Below, piece by piece: positions 1 through 53,353 of a stretch of 53,353 bases of DNA (position 1 is the stretch's first letter; each line of letters starts with the position of its first letter). The stretch lies in IMG/VR virus record IMGVR_UViG_3300025425_000027, positions 1 through 53,353 of that record, one strand, 5' to 3'. Below the pieces are notes generated by a model. It saw only the letters and a program-made list of their open reading frames with translations, searched no databases and had not been told where the DNA came from. The translations under genes and the position numbers were made by a program. This stretch comes from a virus.

Positions 1-96
1 TTTTTAGAGCGCAAGCACGTCAAGTTTATTGTGCTGTGGGGCGCTGCTGTGACGTGCGTATTGGGCGCTATCATACTCGAAAGGTTTTTTCTATGA
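1..96 (+). CDS. 3' part of small membrane protein (duplicate copy)
   Basis: This is the C-terminal part of the 41-residue protein whose complete copy lies at 53192-53317. The frame ends in TGA at 94-96 and encodes the hydrophobic segment ending in GAIILERFFL. It is incomplete only because the contig starts inside the gene. The stop overlaps the ATG of the next gene (ATGA), showing translational coupling. Confidence 0.75.
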   Translation, partial: FLERKHVKFIVLWGAAVTCVLGAIILERFFL

Positions 97-132
97 CTGA
101 CAGTGACCTGACAGCCTTTCAGGCGTCACAGC
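1..132. repeat. Left copy of terminal direct repeat
   Basis: Bases 1-132 match 53222-53353 with only two differences, both C here and T at the far end (positions 12 and 21). The repeat spans the 3' part of a small membrane-protein gene and the first codons of the next gene. The reading frame runs through the junction, which is what a circular or terminally redundant genome gives. The differences are synonymous in the membrane-protein frame. Confidence 0.95.
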
Positions 133-281
133 TCCAGTACCTGCGCTCTGAGGTAGACCGGGCGCAGGATGACAGCCTTAGAAGTGACCCGCACCCAAAC
201 GCTCAGAACAAGCTATTCTATGCGCGTGAGGAGCTTCGGACGTTCACCAGCAATCTAAGAGTAGCTGGTAAAAACATCTAA
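93..281 (+). CDS. Hypothetical 62-aa early protein
   Basis: A 62-residue, charged, probably helical and soluble protein that begins MTDSDLTAFQASQLQYLRSE. I do not recognise the family. The ATG at 93 overlaps the stop of the upstream membrane peptide by four bases, which is why I prefer it to an in-frame candidate further upstream. The first 40 bases of the gene recur at the right end of the window as part of the terminal repeat. It lies just upstream of the oxygenase gene and probably shares its transcript. No signal peptide or membrane segment is visible. Confidence 0.7.
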   Translation: MTDSDLTAFQASQLQYLRSEVDRAQDDSLRSDPHPNAQNKLFYAREELRTFTSNLRVAGKNI

Positions 282-299
282 ATATAAAAGGAAAAAACA

Positions 300-1127
300 A
301 TGATACTAGAAAATGATTACTACTGGTTTCAGTCTGCGCTTACAGATGAGCAATGCGATTACATTATTTCTATTGGTGAAAGTGAAATGAAAAATGCCAA
401 GGCTAGAGGCGATTCAATTGACGCATCAACTTTTGACGGAAAAGATAAGTGTTCGATGCTTGAATCTGGTCTGAGAGAAGATGAATTGTTAATGCAAGGC
501 GATTCCACAATTGATGTGATAAAGAACAAAGGAACAAGAGACAAATCCTTTGTTCGTGATACGCACATATCTTGGCTAAATGATAAAGAAATTTATTCAT
601 GGATTACTCCATATTTAAACGAAGCCAATCTTCGTGCTGGTTGGAATTTTGAATGGGATTGGAGCGAAAGCCTGCAATTTACAAAGTATGGAAAGAAGCA
701 GTTTTATGGTTGGCATCCAGATGCTAATGCGAAACCAAACCCACCGTTTTGGGATGAAAGAAATCCACCAGATGGTGAGCATTATGATGAGGTGGAAGAA
801 AATGGTGAAACTATTTGCATTCCCAAGGGAGGATGGGACTTAAAAGAAAACAAGAAAAAATGGTCAAGAGATGCAAATTATGCTAATAAAATTCGCAAAT
901 TATCTATGACTGTTAACCTAACAAAACCTGAAGACTATAAGGGCGGTAATTTAAAGTTTGATTTTGGGCCTCATTCTGAAAATTCTAGATTTCATACTTG
1001 CAAAGAGATCCGTCCGCGTGGGTCTATTATTGTTTTTCCATCAGACAGGTATCATCAAGTCACACCTGTAACGCATGGGACAAGATACTCACTTGTCATG
1101 TGGTGCATGGGAATGCCTTGGAGGTAG
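300..1127 (+). CDS. 2-oxoglutarate/Fe(II)-dependent oxygenase (prolyl-hydroxylase-like)
   Basis: A 275-residue protein with the double-stranded beta-helix signature of 2OG-Fe(II) oxygenases. H139-x-D141 (in YGWHPDAN) and distal H252 would bind iron; R262, ten residues later in HGTRYSLV, would bind 2-oxoglutarate. YKGGNLKFDFG (about 213-223) matches the usual Gly-rich turn before the core strands. An insertion of about 50 polar residues (145-195) separates the HxD motif from the rest. Such genes are frequent in marine phages and are usually listed as auxiliary metabolic or protein-modifying genes; the substrate is unknown. A purine-rich RBS (AAAGGAAAAAACA) precedes the ATG. The gene is more AT-rich than the early genes that follow, which hints at separate acquisition. 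Confidence 0.85.
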   Translation: MILENDYYWFQSALTDEQCDYIISIGESEMKNAKARGDSIDASTFDGKDKCSMLESGLREDELLMQGDSTIDVIKNKGTRDKSFVRDTHISWLNDKEIYSWITPYLNEANLRAGWNFEWDWSESLQFTKYGKKQFYGWHPDANAKPNPPFWDERNPPDGEHYDEVEENGETICIPKGGWDLKENKKKWSRDANYANKIRKLSMTVNLTKPEDYKGGNLKFDFGPHSENSRFHTCKEIRPRGSIIVFPSDRYHQVTPVTHGTRYSLVMWCMGMPWR

Positions 1128-1156
1128 AATTATCTAAGTTACCGAAAACTAACAAC

Positions 1157-1244
1157 AATAAAAAACTTTTCTTTTACCCCTTGCATTATTTGCAGGGGGT
1201 CTTATATTAGTTGTATAGAGAGATTTAGAAAGGACTACACCATG
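1157..1244 (+). promoter_or_regulatory. Early promoter with leader, copy A
   Basis: An 88-base block ending at the ATG of the 1242 gene and repeated at 1758-1845. It contains TTGCAT (1181-1186), a 16-base spacer and TATATT (1203-1208), a good sigma70-type pair. The shared leader reads TTGTATAGAGAGATTTAGAA, followed by the RBS AAGGACTAC. Both copies have the same length and the same distance from promoter to start codon. Confidence 0.8.
1176..1200. promoter_or_regulatory. 10-bp hairpin/inverted repeat within promoter A
   Basis: ACCCCTTGCA (1176-1185) pairs with TGCAGGGGGT (1191-1200) around the loop TTATT, with one G-T wobble. The -35 box lies in the left arm and loop. The copy-B hairpin has two outer base pairs changed on both arms, so pairing is kept. 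This may be an operator, a cruciform or a structured RNA from read-through transcription. Confidence 0.65.
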
Positions 1245-1505
1245 AGAAAACAATTGATCTGCAAATCCACACCCAAGGGTTGGAAAGTCATCATCCGCGT
1301 GACTGACGCGAAGTTCGAGGGATCGAACTGCGACACCACGATTGCCAGCTTTGCCAAGCGCCCAATGGGCCTGATCACAATGGCGGCTGCTGTGACAGCT
1401 CTCCAGAAGAGTGTCTTTCTGGATGAGATCAGCATCATTGCCAACAAGGCGCGGCTTGATGAGCTGATCAGCGTGGGCATCGTAGATCGGGAGGTCTTGG
1501 CATGA
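1242..1505 (+). CDS. Hypothetical 87-aa early protein
   Basis: An 87-residue protein beginning MRKQLICKSTPKGWKVIIRV, with an alpha/beta appearance and a C-terminal helical part (DEISIIANKARLDELISVG). I do not recognise the family. It is the first gene behind promoter A and starts after the strong RBS AGAAAGGACTAC. Its stop overlaps the next start by four bases (ATGA), so the two genes are translationally coupled. Its position right behind a strong promoter suggests an early host-takeover or regulatory role, which is an inference from context only. Confidence 0.7.
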   Translation: MRKQLICKSTPKGWKVIIRVTDAKFEGSNCDTTIASFAKRPMGLITMAAAVTALQKSVFLDEISIIANKARLDELISVGIVDREVLA

Positions 1506-1738
1506 TTTATGAATGGGAAAAAGAGATCGATATGGAAGCGATCATTGAGAAGGCAAATTTAGATTTGCCTGACCACCTCACCATTATTGGCCTTGCTGTG
1601 GTCAACACAGAACAAGTTGAGGCTTGCCTGAAAGTCAATGAAGACTGGGTTGGCAACGGAATAGCACGGATGGATGTGATGTCTGACGTAAGCGGAGACG
1701 CTAAGAGGCTGTACGAAGAATGCTTTAAAAAGCCATAA
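1502..1738 (+). CDS. Hypothetical 78-aa acidic early protein
   Basis: A 78-residue, acidic, cytosolic-looking protein beginning MIYEWEKEIDMEAIIEKANL, with no signal peptide or membrane segment. It overlaps the stop of the preceding gene by four bases and ends shortly before the second promoter copy, so promoter A drives a two-gene unit. The family is not recognised. The acidic character would fit a small inhibitor or DNA-mimic type of early protein, but nothing in the sequence proves this. Confidence 0.65.
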   Translation: MIYEWEKEIDMEAIIEKANLDLPDHLTIIGLAVVNTEQVEACLKVNEDWVGNGIARMDVMSDVSGDAKRLYEECFKKP

Positions 1739-1757
1739 GTCCTTTGGTTTAAACGAT

Positions 1758-1845
1758 AATAAAAAACTTTTCTCTTGGCCCTTGCATTATGTGCTGGGGC
1801 CACTATATTAGTTGTATAGAGAGATTTAGAAAGGACTACAAAATG
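1758..1845 (+). promoter_or_regulatory. Early promoter with leader, copy B
   Basis: Second copy of the 88-base promoter-leader block. It has TTGCAT (1782-1787), a 16-base spacer and TATATT (1804-1809), then the same leader and the RBS AGAAAGGACTAC before the ATG at 1843. Differences from copy A are concentrated in the hairpin arms and at the last bases before the ATG. Confidence 0.8.
1777..1801. promoter_or_regulatory. Hairpin/inverted repeat within promoter B
   Basis: GGCCCTTGCA (1777-1786) pairs with TGCTGGGGCC (1792-1801) around the loop TTATG, with one wobble and one T-T mismatch. The outer two pairs are G-C here where copy A has A-T and C-G, so both sides changed together. Confidence 0.65.
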
Positions 1846-2415
1846 GCATATTCACACAAACACCCCGGCGCTCAGAACTACCACTCATCAATTCAGAGCT
1901 ACAAGATGGCTAACGCCGCTGACACCAAGCGCAAAAATTGGATTGCTACTGATGACCGCGCCCAAGAGGTCATTGATTTTGTTAAATTTGAAGACCCAAA
2001 CGAGCAAGGCTTTTTGCCAGCAGTTAAAAAAGGCATCTGGCAGTTTGGTTCGCCCACCGAAAACATGCGTAACGCCGTGGTCAAGATGATTGACAAACGC
2101 GCCGCTCAGAAGGCTGAGTGGGCCGCTAGAGACGGCAAGTGCGAGTTTGTTGGCACAGTGGGCGAGCGTCAGTCTTTCGCTCTCACAGTCAAGCACGTTG
2201 TGTCTTTGGACGGTGGGGACTGGGGTACGAGCTACATCAACATCTGCCGCGATGCCGACGACAATGTTGTGATCTACAAAGGCTCGAACTTCTGGGGCAA
2301 AGACAGTGTAGTGACCTGCATGGCCAAGGTTAAAGATCACGGTGTTCGTGAAGGTGTAAAGCAAACCATCATCCAGCGCCCCACCAAAGTAATAGTAAAC
2401 GGAGAGGCTTGGTAG
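1843..2415 (+). CDS. Hypothetical 190-aa early protein
   Basis: A 190-residue protein beginning MAYSHKHPGAQNYHSSIQSY. An upstream in-frame ATG would place the start inside the promoter leader, so I use the one after the RBS AGAAAGGACTAC. The middle (about 85-110) is basic and helical. The C-terminal half is beta-rich, with a conserved-looking WGTSYINICRDADDNVVIYK segment. I recall related proteins from phages in which this part is annotated only as hypothetical. It has no membrane segment or signal peptide. It is the first gene behind promoter B, followed by two small genes sharing the transcript. Confidence 0.75.
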   Translation: MAYSHKHPGAQNYHSSIQSYKMANAADTKRKNWIATDDRAQEVIDFVKFEDPNEQGFLPAVKKGIWQFGSPTENMRNAVVKMIDKRAAQKAEWAARDGKCEFVGTVGERQSFALTVKHVVSLDGGDWGTSYINICRDADDNVVIYKGSNFWGKDSVVTCMAKVKDHGVREGVKQTIIQRPTKVIVNGEAW

Positions 2416-2450
2416 CCTCTTCTACCCCACCTCTGAGAAAGGACTACAAA

Positions 2451-2630
2451 ATGTCTAAAGTTAATGACTGGTCAATCGAATTGAAGGAAATGGGTAGCAC
2501 AGCTCCCTGCCACGTCTGCAATGGCGATGGCAAAGTTGAGGTGCAGATTGCTGCTGATGACTTCCGCGAAGACACTTGCGATATGTGCAATGGCTCTGGC
2601 GAGCTGGAGCTGGATGATGAATATGAATAA
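2451..2630 (+). CDS. Mini-protein with DnaJ-type zinc-finger motifs
   Basis: A 59-residue protein with two CxxCxGxG motifs: C20-C23 (CHVCNGDG) and C43-C46 (CDMCNGSG). This is the zinc-binding signature of the DnaJ central domain, here reduced to a single zinc site without a J domain. The start at 2451 follows the RBS GAGAAAGGACTAC, shared with the promoter-A and promoter-B leaders. The acidic C-terminus overlaps the next gene. Free-standing DnaJ-type zinc ribbons are common in phages, and in some marine podoviruses this motif is joined to DNA polymerase. The role is unknown; a co-chaperone or nucleic-acid-binding adaptor is plausible. Confidence 0.75.
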   Translation: MSKVNDWSIELKEMGSTAPCHVCNGDGKVEVQIAADDFREDTCDMCNGSGELELDDEYE

Positions 2631-3045
2631 GGGTCAGGAAAATCTCCGCATTGCGCTGCGCGATAATCTCAAAATGAAGTTCTACAAGGTGGAGGGGAAG
2701 GGCGGAACGCCCAACCTCCACTATCTTGGCAAGGGCGACTGGCCCACAGGCTGGATGGAAATCATCCACTTGGAGGAGTGGGGCAAGCGCGTCACTACTG
2801 GCCTGCGCCTAGAGCAAGCCAAGTGGATGCAGGATTACATCGACAGTGGCGGCAGTGCGTGGGTGGTGATCCGTGTGGGCCTAGCCACATGCCTGTTCTG
2901 GGGGGATGCGGTTTTTGATTTACTAGATCGGCCCAGCCCAAAGAACTTTATGGGTCTGGCTGTCTGGAGCAAAAACGGCAACCTGTTGAAAGAGGATTGG
3001 AAGCACGTTGAGAACATGATCCTCAACGCAAACTCTGGTTATTGA
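2617..3045 (+). CDS. Nuclease-fold-like protein, probably without catalytic residues
   Basis: A protein of about 142 residues whose order of motifs resembles small phage PD-(D/E)XK (VRR-NUC-like) proteins. It has a basic N-terminal helix, then GTPNLHYL, GWMEIIHLEEW, an LEQAKWMQDY helix and AWVVIRVG. In active members I expect GxPD and ExK at the second and third blocks; here they read GTPN and EII, so the metal-binding Asp and the Lys appear lost. The start is uncertain (ATG at 2614, 2617 or 2623); GGAGCTGG lies just upstream. It overlaps the zinc-finger mini-protein and converges with the minus-strand structural genes, overlapping them by seven bases. Confidence 0.6.
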   Translation: MNMNKGQENLRIALRDNLKMKFYKVEGKGGTPNLHYLGKGDWPTGWMEIIHLEEWGKRVTTGLRLEQAKWMQDYIDSGGSAWVVIRVGLATCLFWGDAVFDLLDRPSPKNFMGLAVWSKNGNLLKEDWKHVENMILNANSGY

Positions 3046-10549: not shown

Positions 10550-12450
10550 TATCGCAGCCCATCCTGTCTTGAGTTAACTCTAAAATCGCCCAGCGTCCAA
10601 TCGTCTTGGGTTCCCGTGCTTTGGAACTTGAGCGCGATCTGACGGCCCTTGGCGCGGGTGCTTACTTTATCAGTTGTTGACGTAATCGTGAACGGCCCCT
10701 TTGTCACCTCAGTGGCATTGGGGTATTTGCGTGTGTTCATGTACAGCGACAGAGACGTGCTAGATGTCATGGTTACATCTGGGATGACCTGATCCACCAT
10801 GTATAGCGTCTCGCCATCTTGACTGATCTCGCGTGGCGCACCTTCAATGTAGCTGTTCATAGCCGCGCCATCGGCACTTGTGCCTGTCTCTTGGTTGTAC
10901 AGGTATCCATCTGGATCAAACGCAAACGGGACAACTTTAGCCCCAAAGCTGTCGCTCCAAACCGTGCGATCCATTGTGCCTACTGACCAGCAATTCTCTG
11001 CATAATTAAATGTGACATATGAATCTGGCTCTGGGTTTATCGTCCCCGCAGGGTTGTCATTTGAGACATAGAACCAAGTGATTTCTTTGAACTCTTTATT
11101 GTGTCCCACGGTTGTCTTTTCAATAAAAGATGTCTGAAGTCGATCAGCGACATAATACTGAACGGGGCATGGCAGCTCATTAACAATACCATCATATTTG
11201 AAAAAGTTTCTCTTTCCCATCCAGTAGACATCACCATCGACACTTATCATTGTGTTGAGGCCAGCGGCCCCAGAATCCGTGGCTAGAAGGCGGAATGAGA
11301 ATATGAAGTCTCCGCCAACAAAGGTCATGCCATACACAGCTTCATCTGTAGATATGATCGTTTCTTCACGGGCAGGAACCATCGCCACGATTTTTGTGCC
11401 AATTTCCAAACGCTGGTCACCAGCCGTGTTGACTGCTGTGGGAGCAAACTTAGTAAACTCTTCTTGGCTCGACCAGCGCACCAGCATGTTATCGACATTT
11501 CCAGAGCTGTATGATGTGCATCCACCTGCAATGAAGTGTCGGTCAGGGAATGACACTGTGGTCACTCGCACCACGCTAGGGACGCTCTGAGCGCCTGCTA
11601 TAGATGACGCAAGCACTGCACGGTCTGCTATGCCCCCAGATGTATCCCAGTAATAGATTGCGCCCCCACGAACTGTGGCTAGAAGGTCTTCGCCCCAAAG
11701 CGATAGGTTCCAAGAGCTGTTATCCAGAGACACAGTGCTTTCTGAGGCGGATCTTGGCGTACCCCATGCCTCGTTACCCCATCCACCAGCGCCCCAACCC
11801 AATGCTGGGGCCGCGCTTTGGACGCCCAGCCCATTATTTAGCCCGATCAGATATTTGATAGTGACTGTCCCGCCGCCTGCCGCGACAGTTGAGGAGGCCG
11901 CAGATGGGACAACAATGGTGTAAGAATCCGCATTAATGCGAGTTATCTGATAGCCATAGTAAGAATTTAAAGTGTCAGCAGAGATGCCGCCAGTAGCTGT
12001 TGTTCCGCTGAGAACAACCCAATCACCCGTCAACGCCCCGTGCGCGGTGTCTGTAATCGTTACGGTTGTGCTTCCATTTGTAGTCGCCACTGGGTTGGTC
12101 AAGCCAGTTTGTGTCGCCCGAAGTGGCGTTATATCGTAGATTGCGCCATTCTCAATAATAAGAAGGTGATTGTGCGTACCGACAGCCAGACGGTCCACGC
12201 CATCCACAGCGGCCCTCCAGTAAAGCATACGGCGAGCGATGCCTTCTATGGTTGTTTCCGTAGTAGTAATATCGCCACTTGGGCTAATTTCGTGGAGTTC
12301 GTCTTTCTGCCAGCCGCCCAACTTTTCAGGGTAGCCGTTCTTAAAACGCACAAGATCACTATCAACCCAAAACGGGCCGTTCTTGCCAGCAGCATACTCA
12401 GTGATGTCCTTTACGACACCGGGGTTATATTTTAAGAGCTGCAATGGCAT
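10549..12450 (-). CDS. Tail stabilisation protein (P22 gp10-like)
   Basis: A 633-residue, beta-rich protein. MPLQLLKYNPGVVKDITEYA, then GPFWVDSDLVRFKNGYPEKLGGW is the typical opening of phage stabilisation proteins that form the lower tail tube of P22-like podoviruses. Several WG/GW clusters (ALGWGAGGWGNEAWGTP, about 222-238) and repeated strand pairs fit a beta-propeller. Together with the gp4-like adaptor at 22124-22804 it defines the short tail. I use the ATG at 12450, preceded by AAAGGAATATTGTTT; a TTG two codons upstream is less likely. Confidence 0.75.
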   Translation of the reverse strand: MPLQLLKYNPGVVKDITEYAAGKNGPFWVDSDLVRFKNGYPEKLGGWQKDELHEISPSGDITTTETTIEGIARRMLYWRAAVDGVDRLAVGTHNHLLIIENGAIYDITPLRATQTGLTNPVATTNGSTTVTITDTAHGALTGDWVVLSGTTATGGISADTLNSYYGYQITRINADSYTIVVPSAASSTVAAGGGTVTIKYLIGLNNGLGVQSAAPALGWGAGGWGNEAWGTPRSASESTVSLDNSSWNLSLWGEDLLATVRGGAIYYWDTSGGIADRAVLASSIAGAQSVPSVVRVTTVSFPDRHFIAGGCTSYSSGNVDNMLVRWSSQEEFTKFAPTAVNTAGDQRLEIGTKIVAMVPAREETIISTDEAVYGMTFVGGDFIFSFRLLATDSGAAGLNTMISVDGDVYWMGKRNFFKYDGIVNELPCPVQYYVADRLQTSFIEKTTVGHNKEFKEITWFYVSNDNPAGTINPEPDSYVTFNYAENCWSVGTMDRTVWSDSFGAKVVPFAFDPDGYLYNQETGTSADGAAMNSYIEGAPREISQDGETLYMVDQVIPDVTMTSSTSLSLYMNTRKYPNATEVTKGPFTITSTTDKVSTRAKGRQIALKFQSTGTQDDWTLGDFRVNSRQDGLR

Positions 12451-12463
12451 AAACAATATTCCT

Positions 12464-13285
12464 TTAGGACAGCATTGCGTTATAAGTCTTCGGGCCTACG
12501 ATCCCATCAGCAACAAGATCTTTACTTTCCTGCCACGCCTGAACCGCCTTTTGCGTCATTATACCAAAAACTCCATCCGTTTCCAGTCCTAATGCGGACT
12601 GCACCTTTTCAACTTCTTTGCCAGTTGATCCAACCTTTAATAGGATAGGCGCACGGACAACAACGTAGCTGCCACCTAAGATGTCCAGAGAGCGTTTGTA
12701 GTGGTGCTTTCGATCAGCAAGGCCAATCGTTCCGCCATTAATTTTTTTGGTCGCCTTAACAACATCCTGAGCGTCTGCGTGGCGGTTTAAGTTGTTTTCA
12801 TCCCAAAACCAGCAAGCACTTTCCAACGCGCCGCGCTTGGTTCCAAGGTATTCGATTGTGTCATCTAGATCCATGCCAACGCTCTTCGCAAAGGCAGATA
12901 CGTTGTCGAAGCCCGTCAATTGGATGACGCCTTTTCCCGAAAATTTCCAGCCATCCCCGCTCGACGGCGGTCCATTACCCATGCGGCTCGCATATACGAT
13001 ATTAGCAATCTTTTCGGGCTGACGATGGTATTCTTGAGCATCGCGCCCAGCACGTTCAAAATATTTAGGGAAGATAGCGTTAAGGCCCTTGGCAGAATAA
13101 TTAAGGTTTTCTTTTAGAACTTTGAAGTTCAGGCTTTCATGGCCACACTGAGCAACGAACATTGCAATTCTATCTTCGGTGTTCACACCATATTTTGGCA
13201 AAAGTTCTTGCATGGGTTCGACCCAGCTTTCCCAATCATCGTTGCCATGAAGCAAGTGCTTTACCTGTGAAGAAGTTAAGATCAT
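12464..13285 (-). CDS. Endolysin: GH19 chitinase-like domain plus peptidoglycan-binding domain
   Basis: A 273-residue endolysin. Residues 1-200 match the glycoside hydrolase 19 lysozyme/chitinase type: FVAQCGHESLNFKVLKENLN contains candidate catalytic Glu50 and Glu59, and FSGKGVIQLTGFDNVSAFAK is the usual downstream motif. Residues 214-272 form a C-terminal PG_binding_1 domain (VGSTGKEVEKVQSALGLETD and DGIVGPKTYNAML). No signal peptide is visible, so release to the periplasm needs the holin, whose gene overlaps the 5' end by four bases. GGGAGC is the RBS. Confidence 0.9.
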   Translation of the reverse strand: MILTSSQVKHLLHGNDDWESWVEPMQELLPKYGVNTEDRIAMFVAQCGHESLNFKVLKENLNYSAKGLNAIFPKYFERAGRDAQEYHRQPEKIANIVYASRMGNGPPSSGDGWKFSGKGVIQLTGFDNVSAFAKSVGMDLDDTIEYLGTKRGALESACWFWDENNLNRHADAQDVVKATKKINGGTIGLADRKHHYKRSLDILGGSYVVVRAPILLKVGSTGKEVEKVQSALGLETDGVFGIMTQKAVQAWQESKDLVADGIVGPKTYNAMLS

Positions 13286-13737
13286 TTGTTTGCTCCCATA
13301 AATTTACTTACACTTCTCTGCCCGAACCAAAACGCTATGATTGCGCTGAACAAAGCCTGTGTTTCATCATCAAACATCAGCGGAACTGCGTCTTGCCAAT
13401 CGTTGCCAGCTTCCATTGCCTTTAATAGTATGACCGCTTTGACGGATAGGAATAAAGCAAAAAAAGCATAAGTAATAACAGGCCGTACAGATGCGGATAA
13501 TCCTGCGGCAAAGCCGCTACGAGGGTTAGCAAATTCATATAAAGCCTTCGTTTCTGCAATCTCAGCTTGCTTATCTAGTTTCTGGATGTCGTGCGTAACG
13601 CCAAGGGCCGCGAGTTCGCCCTGTAGTTTAAGTTCTTCAATTCGGTTTTTGTGATCCTGTTTCTTTTGAAAGAACCCCAGCACTTGGGGAAGGAACGATG
13701 TCCCAAAGCCCAACGCGCTACCTAATAAAGCTATCAT
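13282..13737 (-). CDS. Holin, 3-TM type (GTA holin-like)
   Basis: A 151-residue protein with a hydrophobic N-terminal segment (ALLGSALGFGTSFLPQVLGFF), a charged coiled-coil-like stretch, and a second hydrophobic region after the RP motif: SVRPVITYAFFALFLSVKAV and ALFSAIIAFWFGQRSVSKFM. This order matches the three-transmembrane holin family known from the Roseobacter gene transfer agent. Overlap with the endolysin start (ATGA) supports a lysis function. The RBS is GGGAGGTAAG. It would open the inner membrane to let the endolysin through. Confidence 0.8.
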   Translation of the reverse strand: MIALLGSALGFGTSFLPQVLGFFQKKQDHKNRIEELKLQGELAALGVTHDIQKLDKQAEIAETKALYEFANPRSGFAAGLSASVRPVITYAFFALFLSVKAVILLKAMEAGNDWQDAVPLMFDDETQALFSAIIAFWFGQRSVSKFMGANK

Positions 13738-14057: not shown

Positions 14058-14570
14058 CTAATCAGCCAAAGGATTGTCTAATGCACGTTGCAATTTACCC
14101 ATAAGCCTGTCCTCAAGTTCCTTCATATCCGCGTCTTGACTGCTTCTAACACGTTCTCTCTGATTTTCAAAACGAACTTCAGCAGCGTCAATCATAGCGC
14201 GGACCTTGTCTTCCATCTCCCGAACCATGTCTTCTATACGGTCAGTCTGCTGTTCGATCCGCAAAATGTCATCCGTCAGGCCATTCTTGATGGCACGGGA
14301 ATACTCGACGCCCTCCTCAACCTTCTCAGCAATGCCAAGCATTCGAGCGTCCATAACTTCCATTTGCTGTTGATACTCCCCAATATCAAGCCCTGCTACC
14401 TCTTCAATCTTTTGATACAGTACAAAGCCACCGTACAAACCACCAACTACCGTAGATATGAAAGCAAAGATTGCAAAGATAGATGCGAAGGTAAACTTAA
14501 AACCACCTGCCTTGATCTCGCGGTCTGCGAGGCCATCAATGTTATCTGCAACTTTAGTCAGATCAGTCAT
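14058..14570 (-). CDS. Inner-membrane coiled-coil protein, possible i-spanin-like
   Basis: A 170-residue protein with a short basic N-terminus, one transmembrane segment (about 27-52, FTFASIFAIFAFISTVVGGL) and then more than 100 residues of charged heptad-like coiled coil rich in Glu and Arg. The topology, N-in with a long periplasmic coiled coil, resembles an inner-membrane spanin. The next upstream gene codes for a secreted protein with its own C-terminal coiled coil, which could be the partner. The family is known to me from marine phages only as hypothetical, so the spanin assignment is an inference from topology and neighbours. Confidence 0.55.
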   Translation of the reverse strand: MTDLTKVADNIDGLADREIKAGGFKFTFASIFAIFAFISTVVGGLYGGFVLYQKIEEVAGLDIGEYQQQMEVMDARMLGIAEKVEEGVEYSRAIKNGLTDDILRIEQQTDRIEDMVREMEDKVRAMIDAAEVRFENQRERVRSSQDADMKELEDRLMGKLQRALDNPLAD

Positions 14571-43671: not shown

Positions 43672-43992
43672 TTATGTATTGCCGCCTTGAAATTTAATTG
43701 TCTCGACTTTTGCCTCTGGTTTTTCGGCAATAAGTTCTGCCCCACAACTGAGATACCCACAGCCATCCTGCCAATGATCTGCATTTTCGGGAGTTGACTT
43801 GATCCTAGCAATTTTCAGGAGGGTCATCATGACCCCAACTTGATGCGGTTCGATTGGCGTTTCCAAGAAAACTGACCAGAGTTTTGCAATCATAGTCAGG
43901 TTGGATTCCATGTCACCGTGCTGCGCTGCGCGATCTTTTGTGACGTACTGCTTTGCGGTGTCGAGGATCTCTGATCTTGTATATTTTGTCAT
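43672..43992 (-). CDS. DUF6378-like phage protein, 106 aa
   Basis: A 106-residue protein: RSEILDTAKQYVTKDRAAQH, GDMESNLTMIAKLWSVFLET, then VGVMMTLLKIARIKSTPENA and DHWQDGCGYLSCGAELIAEK. This matches the phage DUF6378 pattern (DRxxQHG...LWS...MMxLLKIAR...DxWxDxxGY), a helical domain that I recall as of unknown function and found near replication genes. The start overlaps the stop of the HTH gene by four bases (ATGA). Confidence 0.75.
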   Translation of the reverse strand: MTKYTRSEILDTAKQYVTKDRAAQHGDMESNLTMIAKLWSVFLETPIEPHQVGVMMTLLKIARIKSTPENADHWQDGCGYLSCGAELIAEKPEAKVETIKFQGGNT

Positions 43993-44263: not shown

Positions 44264-46558
44264 TCAATTAATTGGTGGGGCGAAGTATGCGAAGCGTGGA
44301 CGCCCTCTGGCCCCTTGGTTTTGGTCGCGGCACTCAATGCCCCGGTCTGTCTGTAGTGCGTCCAGAACGTCTGCACGTTTGCGTCTGTCCATATTAGCGA
44401 AGGCTGAGACGCTGCGCGACAGGTCACGCTCAGTTAGTCCACCTAGTCCAGCCTTTTCGATACGGGCATAGACTGCCTTACAGGCTGCATCGAATGGGCC
44501 TTCGGCCATGTTCGAGCGGAACATTTCGATAGTTTGCTTGGCGTAGTAGTTAACGTAATCGATGCTCCACTGCATTGCGTCTGAACCGATATCATCTTGT
44601 CCCATTGATCGCGCCACGATTAGGGACAGGCGCATGGCGATCTCTCTAGATCGATTGTACATGGCCTCTAGTCCAGTGCCAGTTTCTTTCTTGATTGCGG
44701 CTACTAGACGCTCTTCGTAGTCGCGCAGGAGCTTCTTTGCCTCTGGGGTGAAGACAACTTCAATTGGGTGTGGCGGCATATCGTTGATGTTGCCTGCATC
44801 TAGGTCACCTTCGTGGGCGTTTGCGTGTTCCTTTGCCCAAGCTGACAGCCTATCAGAGATAGATGAGCGGCGCTTTTCTTGGGACATCTGGACGCCGATA
44901 TCTGATTTGACGATCAGGAAACGGTTTAGAAGACCAGAAGCCACGTCACCACCACCGATTGCCTGCATGAACTCAGAGGGCGTTGACATGCCGACTAGGG
45001 TTAATGACGGGCGCTTAACTACGGTTTCGAGCTTTGCTGCCTCAGAAGACTTCATTGTGTTGGTTGCGTAGCCTTGCTGCCTTAGAACGCCGTCTTGCCT
45101 GCCAAAACATTCCATTATGGAGGTGAGGGCGTCTGCCTTGTGCTGCATTCCTTTTGCTGCGGCGGCTTTAAGCTGACGGCCCAGCTCATCAACTACAGAG
45201 ACGTGGGTGGGCTTTTTTGTGAGGGTGGACATGACGCCTGCACCACTGGTGTATCCAGATGGGCCGATCAGCTCTTCTAAACCAGACTCTTCAAGCAGCT
45301 CTTCTAGGACAGTCTTTGTGTGTTCCTTACCAGATCCAGTCTCGCCAATGTTTAGGAAGTATAGGCTGGTGAAGTTTCGCTGATCTGTAACCCAGCGGCG
45401 CCCCATTGCCACTGACCCGAAAGCTAGGGCGCACTGAACAGCGAACTGTGGCTGGGGCTTGATGGCGGTGACAGTGTAGTAATTGACCACATCTTGCAGA
45501 ATGCCGGGTACTGACAACAAGTCTTCGGGTACTGTATTTAGTGGTAGGTCCGCCTGTTTGGGCTTTGACATAATGTTGGCGGCTACCTTTGCGCCGTGTT
45601 CGATGGCCTCACGATCATATTCGTGGTTTGGATCTTGGGTGACGTTCATCATCTGGGCCGCGTCTTTAACTGCCTTGCTGACATTACCCATGTGTTCGTA
45701 CTGACACCAAAGCTCGAAGGCATCGAAGGTGTGTGCCGAATCAAACGGATCTGATGCGTGGTGGCTATAGGCACGGCCATCATCGAACAGCTTTACGCCT
45801 GCCAGCTTTGAGGTGGAGTTTGGCGATAGGTATCTGCCACGGGATGTTGGCTTGTATCCGTACTGAACCAGCAGGGTGTGCATGTCGTGAGTTTCATTGA
45901 ACTGGTCTATGACTGACGTGCCTTCACCCTTTGGGCGGGGCTTGCGGGTTGGCTGGAACTCTGCCTTCTTTTTCCACGGGCATATGTCTTGTAGCTGTGG
46001 TCGAAATTTATCCCAGTCACGCCATAGGGTCAGGAGCTGTGGCGGTAGATCTGGGAGGCCATCAAAGATCGACCTGCCTGCCCACTCATAGGGACGGCCA
46101 GTATCTGGGTGGATCGATGGGGGCAGAACGTCCTGCACTGAACCAGCTCGAAGCTCGAAGACCACTTCGGTCTTGCGTGGATCGTCTTGGACTGGCCACG
46201 ATATCTTGTGGGTGATTAGATCGGGTGGTGCTTTAAAGATCAGCTTGCCACGATTTTCACGACCAATGATTTGGGGTGCGGACTGCATAAGCTCAGAGAA
46301 GTCGATGCCCAGCTCTTCAAAGATTATCTTTGTGTGTTCGACGTTATCTATATCAACAGCACAAGTGCCGCTGGCTCCATGTAGTAGACCTACATTGTGA
46401 TTCGGATTCTGCTCGTAATACAGCCGCGCTGCATCAGGATCAGACAATGCCTTCTCTGGTTGCTGCCAGCCAAATCTCGTTGGGCCTTTAGAGCCTGCGG
46501 GGATCGTGACTAGATACCAGCCAAGTTTAGAGCAATAGTCTTCAACTGGGAATTTCAT
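44264..46558 (-). CDS. Primase-polymerase/DUF3987-type helicase fusion
   Basis: A 764-residue protein. Residues 1-165 form an archaeo-eukaryotic-type primase-polymerase domain: WYLVTIPAGSKGPTRFGWQQ, CAVDIDN with D69 and D71, RGKLIFK, and ELRAGSVQDVLPPSIHPDTG with H150. The C-terminal part is a DUF3987/D5-like ATPase with GETGSGK (405-411) and VSVVDELG (453-460), followed by a winged-helix-like region near 690-730. Prim-pol plus helicase proteins start replication in many phages and plasmids. No separate DNA polymerase was found here, so the host enzyme probably extends the primers. The start overlaps the HTH gene by four bases. Confidence 0.85.
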   Translation of the reverse strand: MKFPVEDYCSKLGWYLVTIPAGSKGPTRFGWQQPEKALSDPDAARLYYEQNPNHNVGLLHGASGTCAVDIDNVEHTKIIFEELGIDFSELMQSAPQIIGRENRGKLIFKAPPDLITHKISWPVQDDPRKTEVVFELRAGSVQDVLPPSIHPDTGRPYEWAGRSIFDGLPDLPPQLLTLWRDWDKFRPQLQDICPWKKKAEFQPTRKPRPKGEGTSVIDQFNETHDMHTLLVQYGYKPTSRGRYLSPNSTSKLAGVKLFDDGRAYSHHASDPFDSAHTFDAFELWCQYEHMGNVSKAVKDAAQMMNVTQDPNHEYDREAIEHGAKVAANIMSKPKQADLPLNTVPEDLLSVPGILQDVVNYYTVTAIKPQPQFAVQCALAFGSVAMGRRWVTDQRNFTSLYFLNIGETGSGKEHTKTVLEELLEESGLEELIGPSGYTSGAGVMSTLTKKPTHVSVVDELGRQLKAAAAKGMQHKADALTSIMECFGRQDGVLRQQGYATNTMKSSEAAKLETVVKRPSLTLVGMSTPSEFMQAIGGGDVASGLLNRFLIVKSDIGVQMSQEKRRSSISDRLSAWAKEHANAHEGDLDAGNINDMPPHPIEVVFTPEAKKLLRDYEERLVAAIKKETGTGLEAMYNRSREIAMRLSLIVARSMGQDDIGSDAMQWSIDYVNYYAKQTIEMFRSNMAEGPFDAACKAVYARIEKAGLGGLTERDLSRSVSAFANMDRRKRADVLDALQTDRGIECRDQNQGARGRPRFAYFAPPIN

Positions 46559-46734
46559 TCTGCCTCGCTTAGATATTCGCTAAGTTTTTTCCACGTTGTG
46601 AGGCTGATTTGCTCATTACCTGTGGCGATTGATTTAACAGTGGGGTGGGATAGGCCACACCGCTCTGCCACGACAGTCAGGCGGCGATCTTGGAGCGCGA
46701 CCCTAATATCGTCTATTGGTATTAGTTTTTGCAT
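46555..46734 (-). CDS. Small Cro/XRE-type HTH repressor, 59 aa
   Basis: A 59-residue protein: MQKLIPIDDIRVALQDRRLT, then VVAERCGLSHPTVKSIATGN and EQISLTTWKKLSEYL. This is a compact Cro-type helix-turn-helix (LTxVAxxxGLSxPTVxxIAxG). AAAGGTGAAAA precedes the ATG. The stop overlaps the primase start (ATGA). It is encoded at the edge of the divergent region 46735-46844, whose inverted repeats are good operator candidates, so it probably controls both replication arms. Confidence 0.8.
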   Translation of the reverse strand: MQKLIPIDDIRVALQDRRLTVVAERCGLSHPTVKSIATGNEQISLTTWKKLSEYLSEAE

Positions 46735-46844
46735 TTTTCACCTTTTTTTGCGATTGAGTACAAAAATATCTTTACAGGCTGCAAATCTTTCTGTAAACCA
46801 ATTTCTGTAGAGAGTGTGAAAAAGAGAATCGAAAGGAAATTGCA
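46735..46844. promoter_or_regulatory. Divergent regulatory region
   Basis: This 110-base region separates the minus replication operon from the plus operon. It has the perfect inverted repeat TTTACAG (46771-46777)/CTGTAAA (46791-46797) and a direct repeat TTTCTGTA at 46788-46795 and 46802-46809. On the minus strand TTTACA, 17 bases and TAAAGA form a possible promoter. The plus-strand promoter is less clear. The RBS GAAAGGAAATTGCA lies at its right edge. Confidence 0.65.
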
Positions 46845-47222
46845 ATGAGCAATATCGATGGATTGGCCTCCCAGTGGCTAGAAGTAAAGGCGTTAGAAAA
46901 GAAGATTATCGCACAGCGCCACGCGATAGAAGAGCAAATAACTGAGGCACTAGAAGCCAAGGGTGAAGGCTCCATTACCCACAAACTTGATGAGCATAAG
47001 ATCACGCTGACACAGCCTGTGTCTCGCAAGGTTGACGCCATCGTTTGGGAAAAAATCAAACATAAAATTCCTGAGAACATGCACCCGGTGAAGGTGACAT
47101 TATCGGCTGACGCGGCTGGCTGCAAATATCTGGTGGAGAAAGAACACCGGATGTGGGCCAAGATTGCTGATGCCTTTGAAACTAAGCAGGGCAAGATCGG
47201 CGTTAAAGTCGAAACCTTTTAA
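46845..47222 (+). CDS. Conserved early phage protein (coiled-coil, DUF7173-like), 125 aa
   Basis: A 125-residue protein with an N-terminal coiled coil (LASQWLEVKALEKKIIAQRH AIEE) and a mixed alpha/beta C-terminal half: HKLDEHKITLTQPVSRKVDA, then IPENMHPVKVTLSADAAGCK. I recall this order from phage early regions, with proteins annotated as DUF7173-like or as siphovirus Gp157-type. It is the first gene of the plus operon. Role unknown; an early replication or host-modifying protein is plausible. RBS GAAAGGAAATTGCA. Confidence 0.7.
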   Translation: MSNIDGLASQWLEVKALEKKIIAQRHAIEEQITEALEAKGEGSITHKLDEHKITLTQPVSRKVDAIVWEKIKHKIPENMHPVKVTLSADAAGCKYLVEKEHRMWAKIADAFETKQGKIGVKVETF

Positions 47223-53202: not shown

Positions 53203-53317
53203 AGAGGGCTTAGAGCCATTATTTTTAGAGCGTAAGCACGTTAAGTTTATTGTGCTGTGGGGCGCTGCTGTGACGTGCGTATTGGGCGCTATCATACTCG
53301 AAAGGTTTTTTCTATGA
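53192..53317 (+). CDS. Small membrane protein, 41 aa
   Basis: A 41-residue protein: MEHEEGLEPLFLERKHVKFI, then VLWGAAVTCVLGAIILERFF. The N-terminus is acidic; residues 18-36 form a transmembrane helix. It overlaps the VRR-NUC stop by 11 bases and its own stop overlaps the next ATG by four (ATGA). This is the complete copy; the 3' part recurs at 1-96. The R14 and V17 codons differ between the two copies by synonymous changes. Function unknown; small phage inner-membrane proteins often act on host physiology. Confidence 0.65.
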   Translation: MEHEEGLEPLFLERKHVKFIVLWGAAVTCVLGAIILERFFL

Positions 53318-53353
53318 CTGACAGTGACCTGACAGCCTTTCAGGCGTCACAGC
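53222..53353. repeat. Right copy of terminal direct repeat
   Basis: Matches 1-132 except for two C-to-T differences at 53233 and 53242. Joining the two ends gives one continuous operon from the VRR-NUC gene through the oxygenase gene. The molecule is therefore circular in the assembly or has redundant ends. Confidence 0.95.
53314..53353 (+). CDS. 5' end of the 62-aa early gene (duplicate copy)
   Basis: The first 40 bases (13 codons and one base) of the gene at 93-281, starting MTDSDLTAFQASQ, cut by the end of the window. It shows that the early genes continue from the right end to the left end of the sequence. Confidence 0.85.
   Translation, partial: MTDSDLTAFQASQ

Follow-up and report, generated by a model that had tools for sequence, protein, structure and literature searches.

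Putative mRNA hairpins embedded in duplicated early promoters of a CRP-901-type roseophage

Two copies of an early promoter block, A and B, each carry an inverted repeat, which probably represents an intercistronic mRNA hairpin dual-coded inside an internal early promoter of the sigma-70 type. The arms of the repeat covary in a wider family of promoter cassettes, and hairpins overlapping a promoter and separate intercistronic hairpins exclude each other at the promoters of related phages.

The window, that is, the whole 53,353-nt stretch analysed, is the genome of a lytic marine roseophage of the CRP-901 type. It matches Roseobacter phages CRP-901 and CRP-902 and shares with them the order of an HTH/primase-polymerase block, an early rightward operon and late leftward genes. 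The host of this genus is the CHAB-I-5 lineage; the genus is reported to be strictly lytic, and phages of this type reportedly abound in polar and estuarine waters (PMC10149686). The end of the window (53224-53353) repeats its start (1-130) with at least two substitutions, which would fit an assembly of variants from a circularly permuted genome. Because of this repeat, the operon starting at 46845 is predicted to run across the end into 36-3045, with A and B as putative internal promoters near its end. A near-identical phage (L001) carries both copies. The gene at 300-1127, between ORF 36-281 and cassette A, encodes a 2OG-Fe(II) oxygenase; it looks inserted, since in L050 a cassette directly follows the equivalent stop codon. 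An 84-nt stretch of the oxygenase region is 80% identical to DNA of pelagiphage Mosig.

Duplicated promoter-leader block

The blocks lie in a direct repeat (1151-1244 / 1752-1845; 94 nt, 86% identical, spacing 601). The window has just these two occurrences of the core, where 0.01 would be expected. Both contain, in the same order, an A/T-rich stretch (possibly an UP element), TTGCAT, a 16-nt spacer, TATATT, a leader and an AAGGA ribosome-binding site (Table 1), and by sequence the promoters appear to be of the sigma-70 type. Neither was detected in a generic promoter scan, given the poor match of TTGCAT to TTGACA. The inverted repeat extends from just before the -35 box to 2 nt short of the -10 box, with the -35 box in its left arm and the spacer filled by its right arm. 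Transcription would therefore be expected to start downstream of the hairpin, near 1215 (A) or 1816 (B), in agreement with the initial annotation. Hairpin A has ten pairs, one of them T·G, and its 52-nt segment has an RNA minimum free energy of -19.5 kcal/mol (z -5.1); hairpin B has an extra outer pair, T1776-A1802 (52-nt segment, -19.1, z -4.2).

Table 1. Coordinates of the promoter-leader blocks, their elements and the neighbouring junction hairpin
Feature	Position	Strand	Evidence
Copy A promoter-leader block, through start codon of ORF 1242-1505	1157..1244	+	repeat with copy B; relatives
Copy B promoter-leader block, through start codon of ORF 1843-2415	1758..1845	+	repeat with copy A
Hairpin A, ACCCCTTGCA-TTATT-TGCAGGGGGT	1176..1200; arms 1176-1185 / 1191-1200	+	folding, covariation
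Hairpin B, T-GGCCCTTGCA-TTATG-TGCTGGGGCC-A	1776..1802; arms 1777-1786 / 1792-1801	+	folding, covariation
-35 box TTGCAT, copy A; first five bases within left arm	1181..1186	+	sequence; TTG invariant in 16 cassettes
-35 box TTGCAT, copy B	1782..1787	+	sequence
-10 box TATATT, copy A, 16-nt spacer	1203..1208	+	sequence; TATAT invariant in cassette alignment
-10 box TATATT, copy B, 16-nt spacer	1804..1809	+	sequence
A/T-rich conserved upstream stretch AACAACAATAAAAAACTTTTC, part of shared cassette	1151..1171	+	found in similar form in over 20 cassettes
Conserved 5' leader TTGTATAGAGAGATTTAGAAAGGACTACACC with ribosome-binding site	1211..1241	+	relatives
Intercistronic hairpin GGAGAGGCTTGGTAGCCTCTTC at next junction, over stop codon of ORF 1843-2415, no promoter	2401..2422	+	folding; z only -1.3 alone

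From A to B the two outer pairs change from A-T to G-C and from C-G to G-C, each on both sides, exactly as first described. The arms differ at five positions in all; the fifth change (A1194 to T1795) is uncompensated and had been overlooked. It turns the pair T1182-A1194 of A into T1783·T1795 of B inside the -35 box, next to a T·G pair that had likewise been overlooked. Of the 11 differences between the 88-base blocks, no more than 5 fall within the arms. Two compensated pairs would arise by chance with a probability of about 0.0667 x 0.111 = 0.7%, in a post hoc hand calculation that places two left and three right differences randomly among ten pairs.

Without any selection, template switching in a quasi-palindrome could make one arm a copy of its partner. 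Inverted repeats are known to be corrected in this way, and both arms would be altered at once, as in A versus B. The T·G and T·T positions persist, however, although the same process should have repaired them, and it leaves unexplained both the unrelated arms found at two promoters of one contig and the exclusion with separate hairpins (see below). We therefore regard a purely mutational origin of the covariation as highly improbable.

In the GTDB genome collection, the pattern CCCCTTG..GGGG..TATATTAG had five matches in unrelated bacteria, a number that by hand estimate is not above chance expectation, and a host origin of the promoter was rejected. An Rfam search gave no match above threshold.

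Pairing and sequence drift in the cassette family

Pattern scans with the upstream stretch alone or with part of the promoter alone identified 19 further distinct cassettes in related viral contigs, where they precede different genes. With A and B included, all 21 distinct cassettes can be aligned without gaps and have a single standout pairing register, with 72% of cells paired compared to at most 55% in other registers. In an alignment of 16 sequences, 91.5% of cells are paired, compared to 41-53% with the partner strand slid; this alignment leaves out near-duplicates and the L105/L115/L117 type, which was omitted after its missing hairpin was seen, so that the value describes the hairpin-bearing type only. 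The covariation score of the 16 cassettes is 0.50 (shuffles 0.21±0.03, slid at most 0.14) and both-sided changes number 27 (shuffles 10.4±2.9); the sequences are related, so these values overstate independence and the counts are inflated. The both-sided changes are confined to four pairs, the three outer ones and the innermost, and the number of pairs with such a change is not above shuffles (268/500). Pair types in the three outer columns include UA/GC/CG, AU/GC/UA and CG/GU/AU/GC. One column holds a conserved T·G pair in 14 of the 16 cassettes, and CCC..GGG is conserved in most cassettes. The covariation in this wider family supports selection for pairing, as the initial annotation had suggested for the two copies; arm complementarity would be kept by selection while the arm sequence drifts. 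At two promoters of contig L034 the arms (TATCTGGG..CCCAGATA and GATACCCC..GGGGTATC) are unrelated, with G's in the left arm of one and C's in the left arm of the other, and the geometry is the same.

We infer that the pairing takes place in RNA rather than in DNA. In all 18 hairpin cassettes the plus-strand RNA is more stable than the minus-strand RNA (mean difference -4.9, compared to -2.1 kcal/mol in shuffles), an asymmetry that leans towards plus-strand RNA and of which composition explains almost half. An excess of G·T over A·C is not decisive as proof of RNA, as off-register pairings give a similar ratio. Conserved pairing over a core promoter could also be expected of a cruciform or DNA hairpin which, as in N4-like phages, would sense supercoiling or be recognised by RNA polymerase. 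We give this reading very little credence: in the opposite strand the conserved T·G pairs would become A·C, promoters with a separate hairpin have lost the embedded one, and no RNA polymerase domain was found by Pfam among the large proteins tested, a subset of all proteins.

The repeat could instead be a DNA operator, at which a dimeric phage or host regulator bound across the -35 box and spacer would block RNA polymerase and shut off the early genes. A site between -35 and -10 is typical for repressors, the retained CCC..GGG would fit, and other promoters of the genus have a sequence-conserved spacer palindrome. In CRP-901 (L098), four early promoters contain GTGACANNTGTCAY between -35 and -10 (12026-12038, 12656-12668, 13275-13287 and 14288-14300) with fixed arms, and this palindrome, conserved in many relatives, is likely an operator of some regulator. 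For A and B, however, an operator seems unlikely, as the outer pairs vary yet remain paired, the arms at the two L034 promoters are unrelated, and exclusion with separate upstream hairpins is not predicted by it. Among the options offered initially, a structured RNA in read-through mRNA is thus favoured, and a regulator-binding palindrome appears to fit the GTGACANNTGTCAY promoters better than A and B.

The 59-aa HTH protein (46555-46734), proposed earlier as a binder, is likewise disfavoured. It is 100% identical in L050/L054, 78% in the L008/L011/L020 group, and 90% in CRP-901 despite the unrelated promoter palindrome there. The window has a single exact TTTACAG-N13-CTGTAAA site (46771-46797), between the divergent HTH gene and ORF 46845, and this is likely the real operator of the protein. 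In nine relatives the same intergenic region keeps TTTACA..TGTAAA in form, though their early promoters differ. Since the HTH and its own palindrome are conserved beside unrelated early promoters, and the A/B-type palindrome is not conserved wherever the HTH is, the protein is a poor candidate, and its binding to A and B was rejected as unlikely. The second proposed binder, at 43989, has no family match. GTGACA sites within the window are not above chance.

Two observations on regulation in relatives were made in passing. A small winged-helix-like gene, MarR-like by eye, immediately precedes the first early promoter of its lineage in L034 (309-640) and L039 (about 2220-2600). The promoter of a homologous gene in L047 (about 3941) has ACGTTAACAGATTGTTAACGT as a candidate site for CtrA, a host cell-cycle regulator whose motif TTAA-N7-TTAA it fits.

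Hairpins at gene junctions

In most cassettes the first bases are those of the preceding gene's stop codon (TAAGCTACCGAAAAC.., TAACCAATTAAAAAC..). Where these phages have junctions without a promoter, there is a hairpin right behind the stop codon, for example TAATCAACCGGGGAGCTTCGGCTCCCCACC..AGAAAGGAATACACCATG, with a GC-rich stem, a loop of the UUCG, UACG, CACG or GAAA type and no U-tract. In the window, the junction that follows copy B has a hairpin and no promoter. Many gaps have modest z-scores when whole junctions are folded (mean -1.5 for those without a promoter, in a set that includes some miscalled junctions), and the statement on junction hairpins therefore rests on the inspected stem-loops and not on z. 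At early junctions of L049, L052, L053, L101, L105, L115 and L117, tetraloops swap on similar GC-rich stems.

At promoters, the hairpin is either inside the promoter, as in A, B and their relatives, or separate and upstream of it, as in L105, L115, L117 (at 4403), L113 (at 5849), L034 (at 712) and the CRP-901 and L008 types. Among 46 promoter-like instances, none has both hairpins, 9 have the overlapping one only, 22 the separate one only and 15 neither. A separate upstream hairpin thus accompanies 0 of 9 promoters with an overlapping hairpin and 22 of the 37 others (Fisher p = 0.0016, a value that takes no account of lineage and overstates independence; the set is de-duplicated, with a few near-duplicates or coincidental matches remaining). 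Lineage alone does not explain the exclusion, since both arrangements occur within one contig in L034 and in L117. The initial annotation had held that arms changing without compensation in relatives would speak against pairing. Such changes are indeed seen in L105/L115/L117, but these carry a separate intercistronic hairpin. Counter-examples to a strict overlapping-or-separate rule are L107a and L116, in which the overlapping hairpin is weakened and a separate one is absent, and L099/L110, which retain weaker pairing, with an AA bulge in L110. Taken together, the position of the cassettes at stop codons, the tetraloop hairpins at other junctions and the mutual exclusion point to pairing in mRNA rather than to an operator.

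Alternatively, the hairpin could be a terminator of the upstream unit that overlaps the promoter, its poor U-tract being supplied by the A/U-rich -10 region. Hairpin A scores terminator-like, T-run hairpins are found just upstream of CRP-901-type and L008-type promoters, and hairpins followed by an A/U-rich -10 region could act as weak terminators. A GC-rich hairpin is present, but the tails (CTTATATT and ACTATATT) are poor U-tracts, with T at 5 of 8 positions in A and 4 of 8 in B, and the run is the -10 box itself. The promoter-less junction hairpins of the same phages cannot be efficient terminators, as the gene behind them lacks a promoter at the junction and needs read-through. A literature search on promoter-overlapping terminators found nothing. 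We consider termination a rather improbable function.

We prefer the intercistronic mRNA hairpin, and infer that read-through RNA exists at A and B. Read-through transcripts of the upstream gene would fold the hairpin just past the stop codon of that gene, and transcripts initiated at the A or B promoter itself would lack it. The hairpin might then define or shield the 3' end of the upstream message, or separate the cistrons in processing; such a role as 3' barrier or processing boundary is a tentative proposal, drawn from the malE-malF and puf precedents (PMC5927463). The neighbouring hairpins at promoter-less junctions would have the same role. More generally, the cassette may conceivably be a transplantable early-gene unit, although we lean slightly against this at present, consisting of a stop codon, an UP-like stretch, a promoter with an mRNA hairpin in its -35/spacer region, a leader and a ribosome-binding site, with the hairpin inside the promoter wherever the junction lacks a separate one.

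Comparison with described elements

The nearest described elements that we found are the extended start-associated sequences (ESAS) of cluster K mycobacteriophages, which combine a promoter and an inverted repeat in a repeated intergenic block of about 50 bp, followed by a conserved start-associated sequence (SAS) at the translation start; ESAS are not found at the main repressor region (PMC3203893, PMC11373665). Like A and B, they place a sigma-70/SigA-like promoter over an imperfect inverted repeat in front of several genes. The ESAS arm departures generally do not support RNA pairing, and a DNA-binding site is presumed (PMC3203893), whereas the A/B arms covary. The 13-mer SAS GGGATAGGAGCCC, located at the ESAS start codon, has no match above chance in the window. 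The ESAS phage Adephagia is temperate (PMC11373665), in contrast to the reported lytic lifestyle of CRP-901-type phages (PMC10149686). Since the ESAS arms do not generally keep their pairing and those of A and B do, the A/B-type elements would be a variant, putative promoter-embedded intercistronic hairpins set apart by their pairing arms.

The malE-malF and puf hairpins resemble the A/B type in being stable, located between co-directional genes and positioned to stop 3'-5' degradation of the message upstream (cited in PMC5927463); their stability was measured, whereas the A/B hairpins are known from sequence. The A/B type has the features of an intercistronic hairpin, that is, a stable RNA hairpin between co-directional genes and outside coding sequence, with conserved pairing and variable sequence. 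The puf operon is from Rhodobacter, which we take to belong to the order of the likely host. To our knowledge, neither the malE-malF nor the puf hairpin overlaps a core promoter.

Within the genus, the GTGACANNTGTCAY promoters of CRP-901 share with A and B the gene neighbourhood, the style of the -10 box and leader, and a palindrome between -35 and -10. They differ in that their palindrome is fixed, operator-like and not covarying, and a terminator-like hairpin is usually separate and upstream.

If the proposed reading is true, the cassette would give lytic phages a compact route to insert early genes with their own promoter and with an insulating mRNA 3' end for the preceding gene. The same 25 bases would be doubly constrained, by promoter hexamers in DNA and by base pairing in RNA. 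This would account for a class of inverted repeats in phage promoters that are usually read as repressor sites, and covariation combined with exclusion against separate hairpins would be a test applicable to other such repeats, for example those of ESAS.
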